The notes under the pieces were generated by a model that ran no database searches, was not told the origin of the DNA, and worked only from the letters and a program-made list of their open reading frames with translations. Both the position numbers and the translations under genes were made by a program. 64,000 nucleotides of DNA, taken from Rheinheimera texasensis DSM 17496 (GTDB lineage: Bacteria; Pseudomonadota; Gammaproteobacteria; Enterobacterales; Alteromonadaceae). Below are positions 1 to 9,696 of the stretch, piece by piece. Positions within the stretch are counted from its first letter, which is position 1, and every line of letters starts with the position of its first letter. Location of the stretch: contig NZ_KL544005.1 in assembly GCF_000711985.1 (NCBI RefSeq), forward strand, positions 633,970 to 697,969. Reading direction: 5' to 3'.

Positions 1-740
1 AGCACCGTATCGCTGGGTGTAAAGCGCAGTGAGGCGCGAGCACCTAAACGGTCAATGCCATGCAGATCGGGTTGTGTTGCTGCAATATTTTTGACATAGC
101 CATCACGCTCCCTGTAGGTAAATGCAAATCGACCTTGCATCGATTGCTGTCCACCGGTAATAAATCCTTGCATCTGTCGGGCCGCAAAATTACCAAATCC
201 AGCACTGGTTGAGGCTTCAAACTATTCCTGCGGTTTGCGGGTGGTAACACTCAGCGCACCAACAGAGGCCGCGGTGCCAAATAACGTTGCCTGAGGGCCT
301 TTCACAACTTCAACCCGCTCAATATCAAAGAGCTCGAAATAAGAACCGCGAGAGCGGGAAATATCTGTACCGTTGTAATAAACCGAGACTTTCGGGGCGG
401 CTTGCGCCGAGCCACTATCTGAAGTGATCCCGCGGATCACAAAACCCGGATTATTCGGGCTTTGCTCCTGAATCACCAGACCCGGCGTAATATCGGATAA
501 CACATCCAGATCTTGGATCCCTAGCTGTTCCAATGTTTCGCCATTAAAGGCACTGACCGTTACTGGCACATCCTGCAAAGGTTGCGCTCGCTTTTGCGTC
601 GTTACCGTGATCCGCTCGATTTCGGCAATTGCCGCAGCCTCTTCAGCTACCACCGATGGCAATGCCTGAATAAAAAAAGCGCCCATGATACAAGTGCTGA
701 GTAATTTTTTACGAAAAGGGAGGTAAGTTTTTGATTTCAT
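1..740 (-). pseudogene. TonB-dependent receptor, N-terminal part, interrupted by an in-frame amber codon
   Basis: The ATG at 740 has a good AAGGAA ribosome site and starts a protein with a signal peptide (cleaved near VVA-EE), a TonB-box-like ITVTTQK and a plug domain (LEQLGIQDLDVLSDITPG, VIRGITS, ERVEVVKGPQATLFG). The reading frame stops at TAG (224-222) just after TRKPQE. In the same frame beyond the stop, codons stay open to the window edge and encode typical barrel sequence (FEASTSAGFGNFAARQ, then GRFAFTYRERDGYVKN). So the gene is a normal receptor with one nonsense codon, not a short protein. The codon was probably CAG or GAG. The C-terminal barrel lies outside the window. Substrate unknown. 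Unless the stop is suppressed or is a sequencing error, the product is a useless 172-aa plug fragment. Confidence 0.85.
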
Positions 741-2597: not shown

Positions 2598-3026
2598 CAC
2601 GTCGTGCTCCGCTTGAGAGGAATGTCTCTCCTCAAACATAGCAAGTGTTACAAAAATCGCTGAAAAATCGTGCTGAATTGACCATGGGGATTTATGAACT
2701 TTTTATGAATACCAATAAAAGCATATCCATAAAAGTAATCTCACAAAGGACTTCCCCCGTCAGCATTGTGTGAATCGCCACTAATTTATTAGTGGCGATT
2801 CAGTTTATTGGAAATATCATCAATGTCATGGTCTTAAATTTGGCGGAAAGGTCAAACGTCATCTGAACTAACAATCCCTCTTTTCTAATGTTGTCGCATA
2901 GTCAGACAGTTAATCTCTGTGACTTAAGTACGTTAACAACAGTCCTTGTACCTCACAGCACTAGCTCTCCCCCGTTCGCTTTGCTAAATTCGAGACACGA
3001 CAGGATGTTTCTTTACGACGGGGCAT
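2598..3026. other. non-coding interval between divergent units
   Basis: About 430 bp without a convincing gene separating the leftward PstS-like unit from the rightward recombinase module. It carries a perfect 14-bp hairpin (2771-2802) and must hold both promoters. No convincing -35/-10 pair could be fixed. Confidence 0.5.
2771..2802. terminator. perfect 14-bp hairpin
   Basis: TGAATCGCCACTAA (2771-2784), loop TTTA, then TTAGTGGCGATTCA (2789-2802). The stem is perfect and is followed by GTTTATTGG. It has terminator form, but it lies upstream of both flanking genes, where no transcript should end. It may be left over from a lost gene or mark the edge of the recombinase module. Confidence 0.45.
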
Positions 3027-3527
3027 ATGCGTTTACTCACCGTGCCATTTGAGCTGTTGGCAGGGTTACACCCTAAACTCAGCGAACAAACCAAAAAGAC
3101 CAGTCAGTTGATGTATTCGTCGACTATCGCTGACTTTTCAGTCGATAGCCTGGCGGCGCTTCTTGGGCTTTACCCAATCCACGTGGTTCAACAAAAAGAC
3201 GAGGCGAACTATTGGGTTATCGCTGGCCTGCGGCAATTCGAGTTGCTGTCTGTGTTTCATGCAAAAAATGCAGCTTCCGAAGCTGTGGCAAAAACCAATC
3301 CGCTAACCAATATTCCTGTTCTCGTGCACGATAAAACGACAACCAAGTACATCCAACAGCTTGCCGCAACTGATGTTGCCGGCAGTGCGATTCTGTTTTC
3401 ACTGGGCACCAAAGTAGCCGCACAACTGGACTTAATCAGAGAAAACTTGCCGGAGGAGATTGTGCAGCAGTTTCCCAAGTTCAGCTCTGACCGACGTTTG
3501 TCAGACCGCAAGAGCCGCAAGGATTAA
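3027..3527 (+). CDS. ParB-like-fold small protein, first gene of a recombinase trio
   Basis: 166 aa. The middle (about residues 50-105) resembles the ParB/sulfiredoxin fold: a hydrophobic strand (YPIHVVQQKD), then YWVIAGLRQFELLSVF in the position of the usual Y-x-I-I-x-G-x-R-R motif, then IPVLVHD. The second Arg of that motif is Gln here, so nuclease or CTPase activity is doubtful. The C-terminus is very basic (SSDRRLSDRKSRKD), which fits DNA or protein binding. It ends 6 bp before the next gene, with AAGGA inside its own 3' end serving that gene. I infer a helper or targeting factor for the two recombinase-like proteins. The fold assignment is tentative. Confidence 0.6.
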   Translation: MRLLTVPFELLAGLHPKLSEQTKKTSQLMYSSTIADFSVDSLAALLGLYPIHVVQQKDEANYWVIAGLRQFELLSVFHAKNAASEAVAKTNPLTNIPVLVHDKTTTKYIQQLAATDVAGSAILFSLGTKVAAQLDLIRENLPEEIVQQFPKFSSDRRLSDRKSRKD

Positions 3528-3533
3528 ACGCCG

Positions 3534-6014
3534 TTGTACCGAACCGAGTTTGATGAAGTTTTTGCATTGATGGACATCTCGGATAGTGAGAGGATCCAAT
3601 ACGCCGAATTTTTGCGGCACCTGAATACGCCACCTGACATGAGAAGATTGGCTGGCGTACTGAAAAACTTTATTACCACCTACAGCGATGCCTGGTTCGA
3701 AGACATCAGCCTCAATGCAAATATTGTCCAGCATACCCATCAATGGCTGGAATTGGCCGAAACTCTGGAAGAAAAATTACCGTCAGCTCGCAAGTATCAC
3801 CGTCATCCCGGTAAACGAGGTTTGCAGACTCTATTCCGTGGCAGCTTTACCCACTATCCGTTTTATTCAGTCCATTACATTTTAAGTATTGATAATGCGG
3901 ATTTTTTTAAATGGCTGCGGCAAGTCTTGTTTGTGCTGCCGTTTCTGATGCAGGGTCGCATCCGGGATACCCAACGATTTATGGCCTACGAATATAAATT
4001 TGTGGGCCTTTTTTTTCGGGAAATGACAATCAATGAACAGGCTTTGCAGTGGTTAAGACAAAAAGACTGCTCAGCATGTAAGAACATTCGTTGTTTTATT
4101 GGCTGGCTCTACGAATATCGCGCTTATTTTCGCAATAACCACACGCTTACCTACGCCGAGCTTCAAAGAGCAGGAGAAAAATCCAACACAGAGTCAAGGG
4201 AAAGAGTGATTGCCCTCTACCATGAAATAACTCGCGTCATTAAAACTCTCGAAATCCTTATCGGTTATCAGAAAAAGCGTCGTGGCAGCGGCAACCGGGA
4301 TAGGCGTCCGTCTGGACATTCACGAGTGGATGGAGACATCCCAAGATACGGTGTCACTGCGCTGGAAAGTGACCTTCTCATCCAAATTGAAACGTTGCCC
4401 GATGAAGCAGAGGAATTGCTTTATTCGGTAATGCAGCCGGAACTTGATGATGAACTGGTTGATGCCGGTGAAGACTTATTCGAGCAGCAACAAGATGAGG
4501 TTTATTTGTTTGCTGACGCGGAGCCGATGGAAGCCTATATCGCGGCTTTTCATGGCCGCCGATTGTCTAAGTCAATCATGCGGCGAGTTGAACGGCAGCA
4601 TCAATATCTCACCAATCAGCAGACTTTATCCAACAGTGACGTGTATCGCCTACTGAACTGGTGTCGCCAACCAGAGAAATATGGGGATGAGCATGAAGTT
4701 GCCTGCATTACCGCAATGGTCTTTTTCTGTGCAATGCTACCGCACCAATTAATATCGACCAGCCTAAACTGGGACAATAGTAAATATCCCAAGCTGGATT
4801 TTGGCGAAAATAAACGCTTGGCGTTAAAAGTATTTTCGGTTCAATACGCTTTTAACTTAAAGAATGATTCACGTGCAAAAGCCCTGCTGTTGCCGGTACC
4901 AACCATTTTATTGCAAGCTTCAGAGAATTACATTACTAGACTAATTGACGAGTTCAAAGATCCAAATTATCCGTTAAGTGAATCTAAGTACTCTGCTGGT
5001 GGCACTGCTCTACAAGACAGGCTTGAGCTTGCAACCGGACTTAATGTCAGTGCGCATCAGCTTTCAAGCTTTCTGTTTTTGCGCGCCTGTGCCATGTTCG
5101 GCACTGCGTGTGCAACGTTGATGTTCAATAGGCCTGCTCCTGGCAGCCAGGCAAGACTGTATTACACGTCACTCAATGCAAAGTTACTCCAGGAGCGATA
5201 TAAGCAGCTGGTTACCCAGGTACTGCAGGATGCGAACTTGCTCGACCAGCCCGCATTTGCCTATGACTCACCGATACAAACCGACAACATTGGTTGTCGT
5301 CAGGCGCCAAAGTTGCAGGACTACCAAAGCCTGCTGGCAAAGTTATCCACCAAATTACAAGAGCTACGTAAAAACCTGCTAAACCAGGATTGGGTACACT
5401 TTCATAATTACTTCACAGCTTACTGTATCGTTGCGCAAGGTCTGCTTACTGGATTAAGACCTACACATCAGGGCTTTATCACTGCCCGGCAGATTTTGTA
5501 TAGCAGCAAAGTTGCGGTAGTTCGGGACAAAGACAGCGCCGACGAGTATCACACCAGAACCATTCCGCTGCATCCGGTTGCGATAGAGATTGCAGAGGCT
5601 TATCAAGCGCATATGCAGGCAATGCTTGGACGATTACATCGGATTGGAGCCCTCAGGAAATGGCAAGGCATCGGTAGTCCTGAACCGTTCTTTTTCACCA
5701 ACACAGCGAATGTTGATAGTAGTTACAAGGTCTCGCTGATGCCCTTTAAACCCAGCCTGTTGCAAGAAACTCTGCAAGAGTTTTTCTCCGGGCCTCCGAA
5801 CGGCAATCGCAAGTTTTTACGATCCTGGTTCGAAAGCCAGTCAGTACCAAGCTACTGCATTGACGCGCTGCTCGGGCATGGCAATTTGGGTGAGACGGTT
5901 TGGCATCCACACAACACGATGTCCCTTGAGGATGTCCGACAGACTCTCGTCCCATATCTTGATGCTCTAGTTCAGGTGCTTGAGCTTAGAGCAATATCGG
6001 GGCTGACTTCATGA
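3534..6014 (+). CDS. large tyrosine-recombinase-like protein with degenerate active site
   Basis: 826 aa from a TTG start with AAGGA 10 bp upstream. The C-terminal ~200 residues have the tyrosine-recombinase layout: box I GLRPT (Arg642), RTIPLHP strand, NRKFLRSW (758-765) in place of the H-x-x-R box, and LLGHG (His782). Where the nucleophilic Tyr is expected the sequence reads TVWHPHNT, so the key Tyr is missing, as is the first His. The N-terminal ~600 residues match no domain I know and have a CSACKNIRCFIGW cysteine cluster (around residue 180). It overlaps the next gene by 4 bp (ATGA). It probably acts as a non-catalytic or regulatory partner of the downstream integrase. Confidence 0.75.
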   Translation: MYRTEFDEVFALMDISDSERIQYAEFLRHLNTPPDMRRLAGVLKNFITTYSDAWFEDISLNANIVQHTHQWLELAETLEEKLPSARKYHRHPGKRGLQTLFRGSFTHYPFYSVHYILSIDNADFFKWLRQVLFVLPFLMQGRIRDTQRFMAYEYKFVGLFFREMTINEQALQWLRQKDCSACKNIRCFIGWLYEYRAYFRNNHTLTYAELQRAGEKSNTESRERVIALYHEITRVIKTLEILIGYQKKRRGSGNRDRRPSGHSRVDGDIPRYGVTALESDLLIQIETLPDEAEELLYSVMQPELDDELVDAGEDLFEQQQDEVYLFADAEPMEAYIAAFHGRRLSKSIMRRVERQHQYLTNQQTLSNSDVYRLLNWCRQPEKYGDEHEVACITAMVFFCAMLPHQLISTSLNWDNSKYPKLDFGENKRLALKVFSVQYAFNLKNDSRAKALLLPVPTILLQASENYITRLIDEFKDPNYPLSESKYSAGGTALQDRLELATGLNVSAHQLSSFLFLRACAMFGTACATLMFNRPAPGSQARLYYTSLNAKLLQERYKQLVTQVLQDANLLDQPAFAYDSPIQTDNIGCRQAPKLQDYQSLLAKLSTKLQELRKNLLNQDWVHFHNYFTAYCIVAQGLLTGLRPTHQGFITARQILYSSKVAVVRDKDSADEYHTRTIPLHPVAIEIAEAYQAHMQAMLGRLHRIGALRKWQGIGSPEPFFFTNTANVDSSYKVSLMPFKPSLLQETLQEFFSGPPNGNRKFLRSWFESQSVPSYCIDALLGHGNLGETVWHPHNTMSLEDVRQTLVPYLDALVQVLELRAISGLTS

Positions 6015-9000
6015 CGTTCTCAGAACTACCAGCGGAATTACAAAGTTTGCTACTAAAGACCACAAAGTTGCATAGAAGCAATGTGGACGAGGTCCCTGCA
6101 AAACTGAGTCAATCGCACTACTCGCAGATTTTTTGGGAACTGTACGGCAAGCGTTCGCGTAATGACATGGGCCAAGATGACACGGCAAAGACAGCGACCG
6201 AACTCATCCATCTGCTCAATCAATTTATTCTGGCTAACAGAAGTGCACTCTATGGCCTTAAAATCAGAAACCCCATTCTGATCAAACGCCCCAAGCCACC
6301 ATTACGGGAACAATACGCCTCTTACCTGCCGGAAATTGACTACATTGACCAGCAGTTTTTGCGTAATCCCGACGTTACCTTAAACGGCTCACCTCTTCAC
6401 CAGTCAATACACACACAGGCAAAGTTCTATGTCGGACAGCTGCTGTACGCCGCTAGTCGTTTTGGCGGGCTGTTACGCGTCGATTTACTGAAGAGCCTGT
6501 TGCATCAGACCATCTACGCCGCGCCCTATCAGCACAATAACGTCGTTTGGTATGAGCTAGAAGCTGCCGACCAGTCCCACATGATTTGGATCCCAGACCC
6601 TGTCAGTAGCACGCTGTTACCTCGCTTGTTGAATATGCGACATACTTCAAATTGGGCAGAGCACCCGGCAGTTCAGCAACTGAATATTCAGAGTTGTCTC
6701 AGTTACTTTTTGAAATCCTTTGGACTGCCGCATTTTGACGAGCTGCTCAGGCAGCGTAAAGAGCGCATAAAGAAACTGCTCAAAATCATTGAAGCCAGGT
6801 TGTCGCTGACGCATACAGCCTGTCATCTGCCTGTGTTAGCCGGGGAAGAAGCCAACCTGTCACTTGCCCCAGAAGCATTTAGACGCCTATTAACAATAAC
6901 AACCAGAACCGGGCCATCACATGCTTATTCATTTCTCTCATCTGCGCCTGGTGTACCTTCGATACATAAAAGCAAACAGCGTAAGTCAGACAAAGAACTG
7001 GCTCTGCTATCAAAACCTATCAGCCAATCGATAACAGACTGCGTGGCCGTAATAACCATTGTGAAGAAAAAATTGGCCTCCGGCGCATCAGCAGCGGATA
7101 GTGACCAGTCAAACAGCCCACAACAACATTCCCTCCGCAACTTGTCCGCAACATTAAAAGCGATGGCGCAATCGACGGAGTTCGTGCTGCTACCTGTTAC
7201 ACGGTTACTGATTGAATGGGCTGCATTTCGACTCACTTCGCAAAGTAAATGGTCTGGCAAACTCAAACCAAGTACCCTGATTTCTCACCTGGGGGTGATA
7301 TTAAGGCCATTAACGCGGCTGTTTGCGGCTCACTCCCCATTAAAAATGAATATTGCAGACCTTGACGAGTATTACCATGAAGTCATCGATGATGCGCCGA
7401 AACAACAAGGGCAAATGAGACGCGCGGCTATCCTGCGTGACTTTCATCTGTTTTTAGAAAAGGAATACCAGTTAGAGCCGAGCTACGTGTGTTCAGGTTT
7501 TGTCATGCGAGGTAGCAAATACAAAGCATTGATGGTTGATGCGAACATCTTGCTCCCTGCGGAATACAGCAGCGCCTACCAAACCTTACTACGACGTGTC
7601 GTGTTATCTAAAGCGCCGGATGCAGACCACATCAGGCTTATACTACTGATTTTAGGATTTCGTTGTGGGCTCCGTCGCAGCGAAGCGCTTTATCTGCGCT
7701 TTGAAGATATTCAGACCCCGGGCACTTCCCTTGACGAGGTATCATCGCTCTCCGAGCTTTTAGTACGGCCGCATTCGGAGCGCCAGCTAAAAAGTAAATC
7801 GGCCACTCGCCGCTTGCCACTGGGCCTATTATTATCGAAGGAAGAGCGTGATTGCTTCAGTAATTTCCTCAAACTGCGACAACCTAAAGACCCATCGAAG
7901 TATCTCTTTGTCGGCGCACATGCCGACAAACCACTCGATACTGATCTTGCATTCAAGCCTTTGGTGGCCGTGCTGCAAGAGATCACTGGCGATCCTGATT
8001 TTCGGTATCACAGGTTGCGCCATAGTTTTGTGACATGGACCTTCTGGTATTGGCAGCAACACAAATATCCAACCACACATCCGTTGACGCCGTTTTTATC
8101 CCACGCAGTGATGTCGCATTTAGCTGAGGCCCGACAGCAGTATTTCTTACAGACTCACAGTTCAGCGATTCGGGGGGAATTACATGCCGTCAGTAGCCTA
8201 GCTGGGCACTCGAGCCCGTCCATTACGCTGTTTCATTATCTGCACTCGATGCAGTGGTGTTACACCGCTGAAAACTGGCGTCTTTACGCCTTACACCAAG
8301 ATGCTACGGCTAAGTTACTGAGTATGTCCCGGCGTAATTACTTTTACCGGCTAAATCAAATCGGTTTTACGGCGCTACTCGCCGCTGAATTAACGCCATG
8401 GTGTAAAGCTCCTGAATTATCCAATAGTGAGCAGCAAGCCAAGGAAAGTAACCCCACGGACCAACCCAAAAAACCATCCGGGTTTCACGAAATTTGGGAG
8501 TTTTATCAGGCATTTCTGCTATACACCAGCAAGGCCATGGGAGAGTGGAAAGAAAACCTACTCTATGAAGATACTCGCTATCGCGATACGGATATTGACC
8601 CCGATCCAAATGCCCCCCGCGTCTGGGCTTCAGACAAAAAGCTAGAACCAGACAGATTTGTGTTTGCTGTTGAGCTCCTAGAGTACCGGCAACAAAAAAG
8701 AAATCGTGCAACGCGTCAGTCGTCCGAAAATAGCCCTCCGAGCAATATTGCCGGTTATCAGCTACCCAAATGGTCTACCTGGCATATTGCTACCAGCAAA
8801 GCGATGGCTATTGTGAACTCGTATCAAGAGCTCAATGACGATGAACAATTAGATGTGCTCAAAGCATGTCATTACGTCGTAGTCACCCGCCCTATCAGCG
8901 CACTGAATTGTCAATTCCGCGAGCCAGCTCAACTCTGGTTGTTCGTACAATGGCTCAAACCAATTCTGCGCACTTTGCCCAATACCTATTATTTGAACGT

Positions 9001-9595
9001 GAGTATTCATTGCCATCACAACATCGCCATAAATGAGAAGGAAAAAATACTCGTGGATTGGCAAACGCCTGAATTTGCGGGTTTTGTTGTGAATACACAG
9101 CTGGTCGCCGTCAATGATATCAGCAATGTTCCATTTGCTGACATCACTTTGCGGCACACACCAACACGCGAGGTCAGCAAGCCATTTGCAGACATAGGTT
9201 TAACCCTTGGGATGACCATGCTGTATTTCTATGACGGAGCACGTCTACAACAACAGATTGCCCCAATTCCCATCACAAAGGCGATGCACAAGGAATACGT
9301 TGCCAGACAACAACGGAAAGCCGAAGAGGCAAAAGCGGCTGAATATCAACGAATCAATCCACCTCTCTTTGACCCCGCAGTTGCTCAGGTTAGTGGTATG
9401 TCAGACGAAACGTTTTTTGGCTTCTTAAAATCTAAAGAGATTGATGGCATCGATGAAAAAAAGCAACATCAACCGTCTGACCTGGATAGTATGATGAGTT
9501 CTCAGGACAATCAGAAGTCAGATCTAAATGACATGTGGTCAGACTATAGTGACAAAAAACCGAAAAGGCGGAGCAGAAAAACCAAAGACAATTGA
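6011..9595 (+). CDS. very large tyrosine recombinase / integrase
   Basis: 1194 aa, about three times the usual integrase length. The catalytic core lies mid-protein with all expected residues: GLRRSEAL (Arg555), Lys594/596 in LKSKSATRRLPL, HRLRHSF (His667, Arg670), LAGHSSPSIT (His733) and FHYLH (Tyr743). Ahead of it, residues ~390-510 resemble a core-binding (SAM-like) domain. The first ~380 and last ~440 residues match no domain I know; the tail ends in a basic stretch (KKPKRRSRKTK). Start ATG overlaps the previous stop (ATGA), so the three genes are one transcript. It likely cuts and rejoins DNA for integration, excision or transposition of an element. The arrangement recalls Tn554 tnpABC and the gamma-mobile-trio islands, but size and gene order differ, so neither name is applied. 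Confidence 0.85.
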   Translation: MTFSELPAELQSLLLKTTKLHRSNVDEVPAKLSQSHYSQIFWELYGKRSRNDMGQDDTAKTATELIHLLNQFILANRSALYGLKIRNPILIKRPKPPLREQYASYLPEIDYIDQQFLRNPDVTLNGSPLHQSIHTQAKFYVGQLLYAASRFGGLLRVDLLKSLLHQTIYAAPYQHNNVVWYELEAADQSHMIWIPDPVSSTLLPRLLNMRHTSNWAEHPAVQQLNIQSCLSYFLKSFGLPHFDELLRQRKERIKKLLKIIEARLSLTHTACHLPVLAGEEANLSLAPEAFRRLLTITTRTGPSHAYSFLSSAPGVPSIHKSKQRKSDKELALLSKPISQSITDCVAVITIVKKKLASGASAADSDQSNSPQQHSLRNLSATLKAMAQSTEFVLLPVTRLLIEWAAFRLTSQSKWSGKLKPSTLISHLGVILRPLTRLFAAHSPLKMNIADLDEYYHEVIDDAPKQQGQMRRAAILRDFHLFLEKEYQLEPSYVCSGFVMRGSKYKALMVDANILLPAEYSSAYQTLLRRVVLSKAPDADHIRLILLILGFRCGLRRSEALYLRFEDIQTPGTSLDEVSSLSELLVRPHSERQLKSKSATRRLPLGLLLSKEERDCFSNFLKLRQPKDPSKYLFVGAHADKPLDTDLAFKPLVAVLQEITGDPDFRYHRLRHSFVTWTFWYWQQHKYPTTHPLTPFLSHAVMSHLAEARQQYFLQTHSSAIRGELHAVSSLAGHSSPSITLFHYLHSMQWCYTAENWRLYALHQDATAKLLSMSRRNYFYRLNQIGFTALLAAELTPWCKAPELSNSEQQAKESNPTDQPKKPSGFHEIWEFYQAFLLYTSKAMGEWKENLLYEDTRYRDTDIDPDPNAPRVWASDKKLEPDRFVFAVELLEYRQQKRNRATRQSSENSPPSNIAGYQLPKWSTWHIATSKAMAIVNSYQELNDDEQLDVLKACHYVVVTRPISALNCQFREPAQLWLFVQWLKPILRTLPNTYYLNVSIHCHHNIAINEKEKILVDWQTPEFAGFVVNTQLVAVNDISNVPFADITLRHTPTREVSKPFADIGLTLGMTMLYFYDGARLQQQIAPIPITKAMHKEYVARQQRKAEEAKAAEYQRINPPLFDPAVAQVSGMSDETFFGFLKSKEIDGIDEKKQHQPSDLDSMMSSQDNQKSDLNDMWSDYSDKKPKRRSRKTKDN

Positions 9596-9696
9596 TGGAG
9601 TTTGGAAGAAATTGCGTGATATGGATATTGCCACTGCCAATAGCGACCCAAGGACGCGAAATCCAGCCCAGAAAGTATACTGTGTTGCTAATTAAC

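Follow-up and report, generated by a model that had tools for sequence, protein, structure and literature searches.

A putative recombination module pairing a giant tyrosine recombinase with a nucleophile-less partner in Rheinheimera texasensis

Introduction

Three adjacent genes of Rheinheimera texasensis DSM 17496 raise the question of why a giant tyrosine recombinase would be encoded directly behind a relative that lacks the catalytic tyrosine. The genes, here called A, B and C, lie in a stretch of 64,000 nucleotides (nt), the window, which sits in contig C4 of the 4.59-Mb genome; the trio occupies C4:636996-643564. A preliminary description of this DNA reported three genes for proteins of 166, 826 and 1194 amino acids (aa), with 6 nt between A and B and a 4-nt overlap between B and C. 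The coordinates of the open reading frames (ORFs) bear this arrangement out, and the TTG start of B falls in line with the ATG at which its closest relative, from R. oceanensis, begins.

It is moderately probable that A-B-C serves as the recombination module of a so far undescribed integrative-element family in Gammaproteobacteria, in which C cuts, B serves as an obligate dead partner and strand exchange is one-sided. The underlying comparison of sequences shows that the three genes are co-conserved, that B and C are naturally fused in some loci, that B has lost the tyrosine but not its pocket, that the two partners diverge together, that near-identical copies have differing flanks, and that a motif is adjacent to the trios.

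Catalytic residues of C and B

Gene C displays the R..K..H-x-x-R..H..Y pattern of a tyrosine recombinase. The Pfam model Phage_integrase matches residues 537-676 (E=1.5e-8), and a profile search of the PDB with C returned a XerC-like recombinase (E 0.088). The preliminary description credited C with a full set of R555, K594/596, H667, R670, H733 and Y743; this reading holds with K594 as the lysine, and all of these residues except H667 are invariant. Across the alignment (window included), R555, K594, R600, R670, H671, G732, H733, Y743 and H745 are found in 57/57 sequences. The box II column of H667 contains His in 42/57 and Tyr in 13/57, with one Lys and one Gln. When raw sequences were counted, a Tyr at +9/+10 after the catalytic His was present in 57/57 C proteins but in only 1/59 B proteins, so that B lacks the tyrosine nucleophile.

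In the window protein, H782 of B is followed by GNLGETVWHPHNTMS, positions +8 to +10 read W-H-P, and the first Tyr appears at +26. The earlier observation that B retains R642 and H782 but carries W-H-P instead of Tyr was accurate, and the Tyr-less pattern recurs across 59 B sequences. The commonest position of a Tyr in B is +11 (16/59), a column occupied by Phe in 13 proteins and by His in 9. Other pocket residues are nearly invariant, with R642 in 60/61, K666 and R675 in 61/61 each, R759 in 58/59 and H782 in 59/59; the residue table has 61 or 59 rows and includes the second pieces of B genes split in two loci (L017, L173). The box II His position is Asn (N756) in 56/59. Such a pocket might suggest that B is not dead and that a Ser 12 residues past the catalytic His (column 794, 51/59), or another residue, acts as nucleophile in otherwise intact surroundings. 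However, the window protein has Asn at column 794, the box II His is replaced by Asn in nearly the whole family, and we know of no precedent for a Ser nucleophile in a pocket of this kind. A live B is thus highly improbable.

The fold of B was assigned by profile. In hhalign comparisons on alignments of 57-61 sequences, B matched two canonical recombinases (from loci L031 and L032) at 92% (E 6.6e-7), and the alignment pairs R642, the R-x-I-P-L stretch, N-x-x-R and G-H with their recombinase counterparts. Controls (one reversed, five column-shuffled) reached 0.0-0.2% for B and 0.1-0.6% for C, and a recombinase set that included a third, unrelated ORF gave 84%. Shallow comparisons with 3-8-sequence alignments failed even for B versus C and are superseded by the deeper ones. 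Scans of the window B against Pfam, NCBIfam, PHROGs and PADLOC returned nothing significant. Taken as a profile-based assignment, these data support a recombinase fold for B in which the pocket is kept and the nucleophile lost.

Co-conservation, spread and fusion of the partners

The preliminary description made its case depend on the trio occurring together across genomes. With C as the query of a protein search, 9/60 genomes gave a match, its own counted, with close ones in the sister genomes G017 and G018 only. A scan of one genome per species yielded six loci, two of them those of G017 and G018, with relatives in Rheinheimera, Arsukibacterium and Paraglaciecola. A-B-C stands in the same order and on the same strand in R. 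oceanensis, A. tuosuense, Arsukibacterium sp. MJ3 and a Paraglaciecola metagenome-assembled genome. The R. texasensis genome contains a second full trio (C4:597575-604234, minus strand; identity of 33% for A, 37% for B and 35% for C), and G017 has a third trio. All 7/7 close loci long enough to be judged, the window included, show A-B-C, and the genes are therefore co-conserved. The G018 contig breaks off within the module and lies outside this count.

With a profile of ten B proteins (E<=1e-8), relatives were detected in 54/395 genomes of the same family and in 11/369 genomes sampled across the class, the window's own genome being counted in both. The module is densest in the host family (Rheinheimera, Arsukibacterium, Paraglaciecola). 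Altogether, 62 loci were assembled, window included; L005 has C only, and dropping a 197-aa fragment (L123) left 60 B loci, with the second pieces of the split B genes (L017, L173) excluded from the counts of organization. C is a separate gene in 40 of these loci and part of one ORF with B in 16, while three loci end at a contig edge (L116, L119, L120) and one (L178) has no recognized C. A separate C starts between -128 and +13 nt from the B stop in 39/40 cases, the exception being L017 with its split B.

The 16 fusion ORFs span 1,278 to 1,963 aa and comprise one on contig C5 of this genome (L015 9928-15219), that of L019, and 14 among L121-L191. A small same-strand ORF (60-300 aa) is located at the B start in 37/43 unfused loci versus 5/17 long loci (>=1,250 aa). 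The four longest fusions (1,924-1,963 aa) retain this small upstream ORF, and 10/11 fusions of 1,729-1,834 aa are without it. Nine of those ten have a same-strand ORF of 250-299 aa about 370 nt or less downstream, a candidate stand-in for the small upstream ORF. Distances among B proteins and among C proteins correlate with r=0.844 (56 loci, 1,538 pairs), a value reached by 0/1,000 permutations, the largest of which gave 0.145. This correlation indicates that the pairs were inherited or moved together, and the repeated natural fusion of B and C argues for a 1:1 complex.

C-like domains matched 17 plasmid records, including 14 of Acinetobacter and one of Sphingobium. The plasmids of Vibrio cyclitrophicus and A. 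lwoffii have, in the place of B, a gene of 743 or 758 aa whose end overlaps the C-like one, as judged by position and not by profile; in the Sphingobium plasmid, a 306-aa gene precedes the C-like gene. Annotations in three plasmid relatives read 'hypothetical protein', 'integrase', 'tyrosine-type recombinase/integrase' and 'site-specific integrase'. A search of 50,697 phage records with C found none, and viral contigs searched with B and with the C alignment contained no relative.

The small protein A

Gene A was initially described as ParB-like. The 166-aa protein stands, and the ParB label is weakly supported. A has no Pfam match at E<=1. A profile of 11 close A proteins gave three PDB matches at E<=10, all of them ParB (E 0.051, 0.28 and 1.1), and the similarity runs through the HPIHVV...VIAGFR stretch, which we take to resemble the QPI-V...GERR motif of ParB. 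ParB likeness of the small protein throughout the family was rejected, since 40 small proteins of the family had no match to a ParB model in Pfam at E<=10 and eight distant ones had no ParB match in the PDB. Individual small proteins show matches of helix-turn-helix type (E 0.002-0.004), and A has no recombinase match. The ParB-like label is thus a weakly supported lead confined to the trio's own subfamily.

Copies, element ends and mobility

The second trio of R. texasensis and the G018 copy share 95.9% identity over the 2.8 kb compared. The blastn match stops 26 bp past the C stop. In gapless 25-bp bins past that stop, 18, 15, 9, 11 and 13 of 25 positions agree, followed by 6, 6 and 6, so that chance level is attained from about +125. 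The second copy adjoins an MFS transporter gene that occurs in nine sister genomes and, judged from its neighbors, may be nitrate-transporter-like. The G018 copy instead continues into sequence matching two repeat copies of the R. texasensis genome at 85-86%, one of them beside an IntI4-like integron integrase (PDB 2a3v, E 3.5e-129). At L198 5467-14073 (C4 ~930-939 kb), this integrase is accompanied by repeats and by a series of small ORFs on the minus strand, which together are apparently a chromosomal integron. A further pair of loci (L065 and L068) shares a 6.6-kb block of 90.8% identity with unlike DNA on both sides, and the right break falls 106 and 109 bp past C. From this comparative genomics we infer that the module is mobile.

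At the left end of the window copy, the 98%-identical flank of G018 stops at window 2770, exactly where an inverted pair of a 14-bp motif begins (Table 1). In the second copy and in the G018 copy, the motif (TTRGTGGYKATTCA) also occurs, each time 98 bp past C. Across the 4.59-Mb genome, the degenerate motif is matched exactly at three sites, each adjacent to one of the two trios (backwards control, one match). These matches are trio-adjacent by construction because the motif was written from those sites; its information lies in the lack of further matches in the genome and in the equal offset in two copies. With <=1 mismatch, three matches occur in the window, a count reached by 0/100 shuffles. 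The third of them (window 30559) was rejected as a site, as it has one mismatch and lies inside a 666-aa ORF. A search of Rfam with the left end returned only miRNA and sRNA families under their gathering scores, and none for seven sister loci.

Two further observations concern possible ends. In this genome, about 33 kb separate the two trios, which point in opposite directions, A ends inward and C ends outward, an arrangement that resembles the two ends of a composite element. Upstream of three relatives (L065 5686-6900, L068 5890-6160, L016 3440-3680), repeats like tRNA-Arg 3' halves with a terminator were seen by eye. As ends of the trio they were rejected, since ARAGORN found no tRNA and another integrase may explain them.

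Proposed mechanism

In the proposed scheme, C would be the cutting subunit, attacking through Y743. B, of the same fold, would keep the residues that grip the phosphate and have no nucleophile; hence, it could hold a core half-site without cutting. C and B would occupy alternate half-sites of the synaptic complex as a C-B tetramer, and this placement of B would allow the exchange of one strand pair only. The resulting half-crossover junction would be left for replication or host repair to finish, as proposed for strand-biased circularizing integrative elements (SE). Completion of a half-crossover through replication or repair is also the route of integron cassettes. A would be an accessory factor that binds DNA or regulates the process. 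The preliminary description suggested that a dead recombinase might act as a structural subunit, and the conservation pattern of B fits this idea.

Several observations weigh against this scheme. The profile of ten B proteins found no recombinase in the PDB (top match an F-box protein, E 2.6), and B relatives match Pfam and NCBIfam recombinase models weakly (0.03-0.2); the fold of B therefore rests on the deeper hhalign comparison. No excised circle was seen, and flank searches in related genomes, a check proposed in the preliminary description, disclosed no clean empty site. The G018 sequence to the right of the window junction is absent from the R. texasensis genome, and in G002 the two flanks of the window copy lie on separate contigs. 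The motif was derived from the very loci in which it was then found, and it is not recognizable in most of the other subfamilies scanned. Within 500 bp downstream of C, the window copy has no right-end motif at <=4 mismatches, and this copy may hence be immobile. Integrase and TraI_2 domains downstream of some members (see below) point in the same direction. Finally, PMC10214605 already presents GinC, of the GInt elements, as a recombinase-fold protein lacking the catalytic Tyr.

If the scheme of a cutting C and a dead B is correct, the family offers a naturally occurring test of the reasons for which an inactive recombinase is retained in several transposon families. The loss in B would be limited to the nucleophile (and box II His to Asn), with a near-invariant pocket in about 60 diverse proteins. 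Since fusions fix the B:C ratio at 1:1 and the loss is confined to the nucleophile, one-sided exchange could be tested with a two-protein or a single fused system. The scheme also points to an unnamed family present in 54/395 sampled host-family genomes. A bolder claim is that the trio represents a distinct class of transposable element, defined by an obligate and repeatedly fused live-dead recombinase pair in which a pseudo-enzyme with an intact pocket but no nucleophile fills half of the synapse and hard-wires single-strand exchange; this would give strand-biased integration a testable molecular basis. This claim is possible but rather doubtful.

Genomic neighborhood

The features of the window copy are listed in Table 1.

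Table 1. Trio genes and candidate end features in the window (window coordinates)
Feature	Position	Strand	Description
Gene A	3027..3527	+	166 aa, ATG start; small accessory protein, weakly similar to ParB N-terminal part; homologues at the equivalent place in 6 other close trios
Gene B	3534..6014	+	826 aa, TTG start; tyrosine-recombinase fold (by profile), without Tyr nucleophile
Gene C	6011..9595	+	1194 aa, ATG start; giant tyrosine recombinase, complete set R555 K594 H667 R670 H733 Y743
Inverted pair of 14-bp motif TTAGTGGCGATTCA, 4-bp spacer TTTA	2771..2802	.	Candidate core-type recombination site, left end of window copy
Remnant of ~55 bp resembling an insertion-sequence end	2801..2856	.	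Recurs in 13 sister-genome loci
Expected right-end region of window copy	9596..9696	.	End motif of the second copy (98 bp past C) not seen here

Several of the 13 sister-genome copies of the remnant are near contig ends, and in three of these loci the sequence upstream of it looks, by eye, like an IS3-type orfA. The window trio is flanked on the left by a porin-like gene and a short ORF lacking a Pfam match, and on the right by a PepSY-TM gene and a TonB receptor. Of the domains of a TonB receptor, a 171-aa ORF at window 222-740 contains the plug alone and is apparently truncated.

On the A side, the window copy and the second copy have ordinary genes as neighbors. Other close relatives carry HipA at this side (R. 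oceanensis, A. tuosuense as a fragment, Paraglaciecola), AbiE and a TOTE protein (R. oceanensis), a reverse transcriptase (MJ3) or Fic (G017). The block shared by L065 and L068 includes neither the HipA fragment nor the reverse transcriptase, which may therefore be neighbors in a defense island and not cargo. Pfam families were tallied for 100 ORFs on each side, hand-picked by taking for each locus roughly its two closest ORFs out of the first 150 of 159 and 154. Neither side of the sample includes the window. The upstream side also omits L121, L169 and L191-L193 as well as two ORFs that overlap or belong to B (L115, L173), and the downstream side omits L189, L192 and L193. Among the 25 commonest families listed (of 109 and 68), HipA_C occurs 5 times upstream versus 2 downstream and Fic 3 times upstream, while phage-type integrase domains (6) and TraI_2 (4) occur downstream. 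Long minus-strand ORFs face C downstream in L162, L164 and L169.

The downstream domains suggest nesting in integrative islands, and some members may thus reside in islands that other enzymes could move. From this follows an alternative in which the module is an island accessory, with a role such as cargo capture, dimer resolution or island stability, and in which ordinary integrases and relaxases move the islands. The HipA, Fic, restriction-type and TOTE families among the upstream ORFs agree with it, as do the C-like matches in plasmid records. Against an accessory role stand the homologous block that stops near the trio in two locus pairs (106-109 bp and by ~125 bp past C) and the 96%-identical copy (2.8 kb) with different flanks in two genomes. 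We hold this alternative to be unlikely.

Comparison with known systems

The preliminary description set the trio apart from gamma-mobile-trio (GMT) islands by size and order, and both distinctions stand. NCBIfam includes models for GmtX and GmtZ, and its GmtY model (NF040693) exceeds its cut-off in 4/60 relatives. At E<=1, NCBIfam yielded no GMT match for A, B and C nor for eight proteins of relatives, which argues that they are not plain GMT members. The three GMT loci examined in relatives read Y (433-503 aa), Z (883-1439 aa) and X (207-248 aa), with Z and X named by position and one locus, in G055, below the GmtY cut-off; their proteins have no profile match to A or B. C matches GmtY at 63%, a likeness as between any two recombinases. 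Both systems are three-gene modules that combine a giant with a smaller recombinase and a small protein, but the GMT order is recombinase-giant-small, here it is small-B-C, the sizes differ, and the trio matches no GMT family model. According to a citing paper, GMT carries defense and offense cargo (PMC12715929).

SE bear the genes intA-tfp-intB-srap (PMC10214605, PMC9345347). They share with the trio a recombinase operon, an inactive recombinase-fold protein (Tfp), a small auxiliary protein, end motifs and occurrence in Gammaproteobacteria, including Alteromonadales (PMC10214605, PMC9345347). Unlike the three-gene trio with one active enzyme, they have four genes and two active enzymes, and Tfp is described as lacking the RHRY set; a nicked circle and one-strand exchange that leaves no empty site also belong to the definition of SE. 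In the SE of pAQU1, the proteins have 545, 614, 671 and 161 aa (genes named by order). Profile comparison with the trio found no match of B to Tfp, A to Srap or C to IntB, single-sequence profiles being insensitive, and C matched IntA at 87.6%, as a generic recombinase would. Because of this insensitivity, a remote kinship with SE may remain.

GInt, RIT and Tn554 were compared by gene content and descriptions only. GInt resembles the trio in a recombinase operon at one island end with one degenerate member and a small fourth protein, but it comprises four genes (ginABCD) and its GinC is reported to lack the first Arg that B keeps, a comparison by gene number and description (PMC5385486). RIT, with three recombinases, and Tn554, with TnpA, TnpB and TnpC, share overlapping recombinase genes with the trio, and giant recombinases exist in actinobacterial Tn554 relatives (PMC3414803). 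All three RIT families, however, have a possible catalytic motif (PMC3414803), whereas B has no Tyr and A no recombinase match.

The trio could still be a very divergent member of GMT, SE, GInt, Tn554 or RIT with the same behavior. The shared layout of tyrosine recombinases and a small protein in one operon is in keeping with this, as is the inactive recombinase-fold protein of SE and GInt, with GinC described as devoid of the catalytic Tyr (PMC10214605, PMC5385486). Two SE members share 20.5-26.6% identity (PMC9345347) and GInt families 24-40% (PMC5385486), so that kinship could escape detection. Against such membership stand the absence of any NCBIfam GMT match at E<=1, the different GMT gene order, the lack of GMT profile matches for A and B and of B-Tfp or A-Srap matches in pAQU1, and the four genes with two active enzymes of SE and GInt versus one active enzyme here. 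Moreover, Tfp is described as lacking the RHRY residues and GinC as lacking the first Arg (PMC5385486), while B has R642 in 60/61 proteins. Divergent membership thus appears improbable, and the reading of A-B-C as the module of a separate integrative-element family is preferred.

Among the matches listed by a literature search, whose scope did not extend to the original GMT paper, none described the module. In their available parts, PMC10214605, PMC9345347 and PMC5385486 do not describe a single active partner, a pocket this conserved without its nucleophile, or B-C fusions. The concept of a dead partner is not new, because these papers describe inactive recombinase-fold partners in SE and GInt. 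The earlier proposal of an undescribed mobile or DNA-rearranging system is therefore sustained for the family, which appears new, and not for its kind, which Tfp and GinC already represent (PMC10214605, PMC5385486). By sequence comparison, A-B-C appears to add a new module family to a known kind of element.

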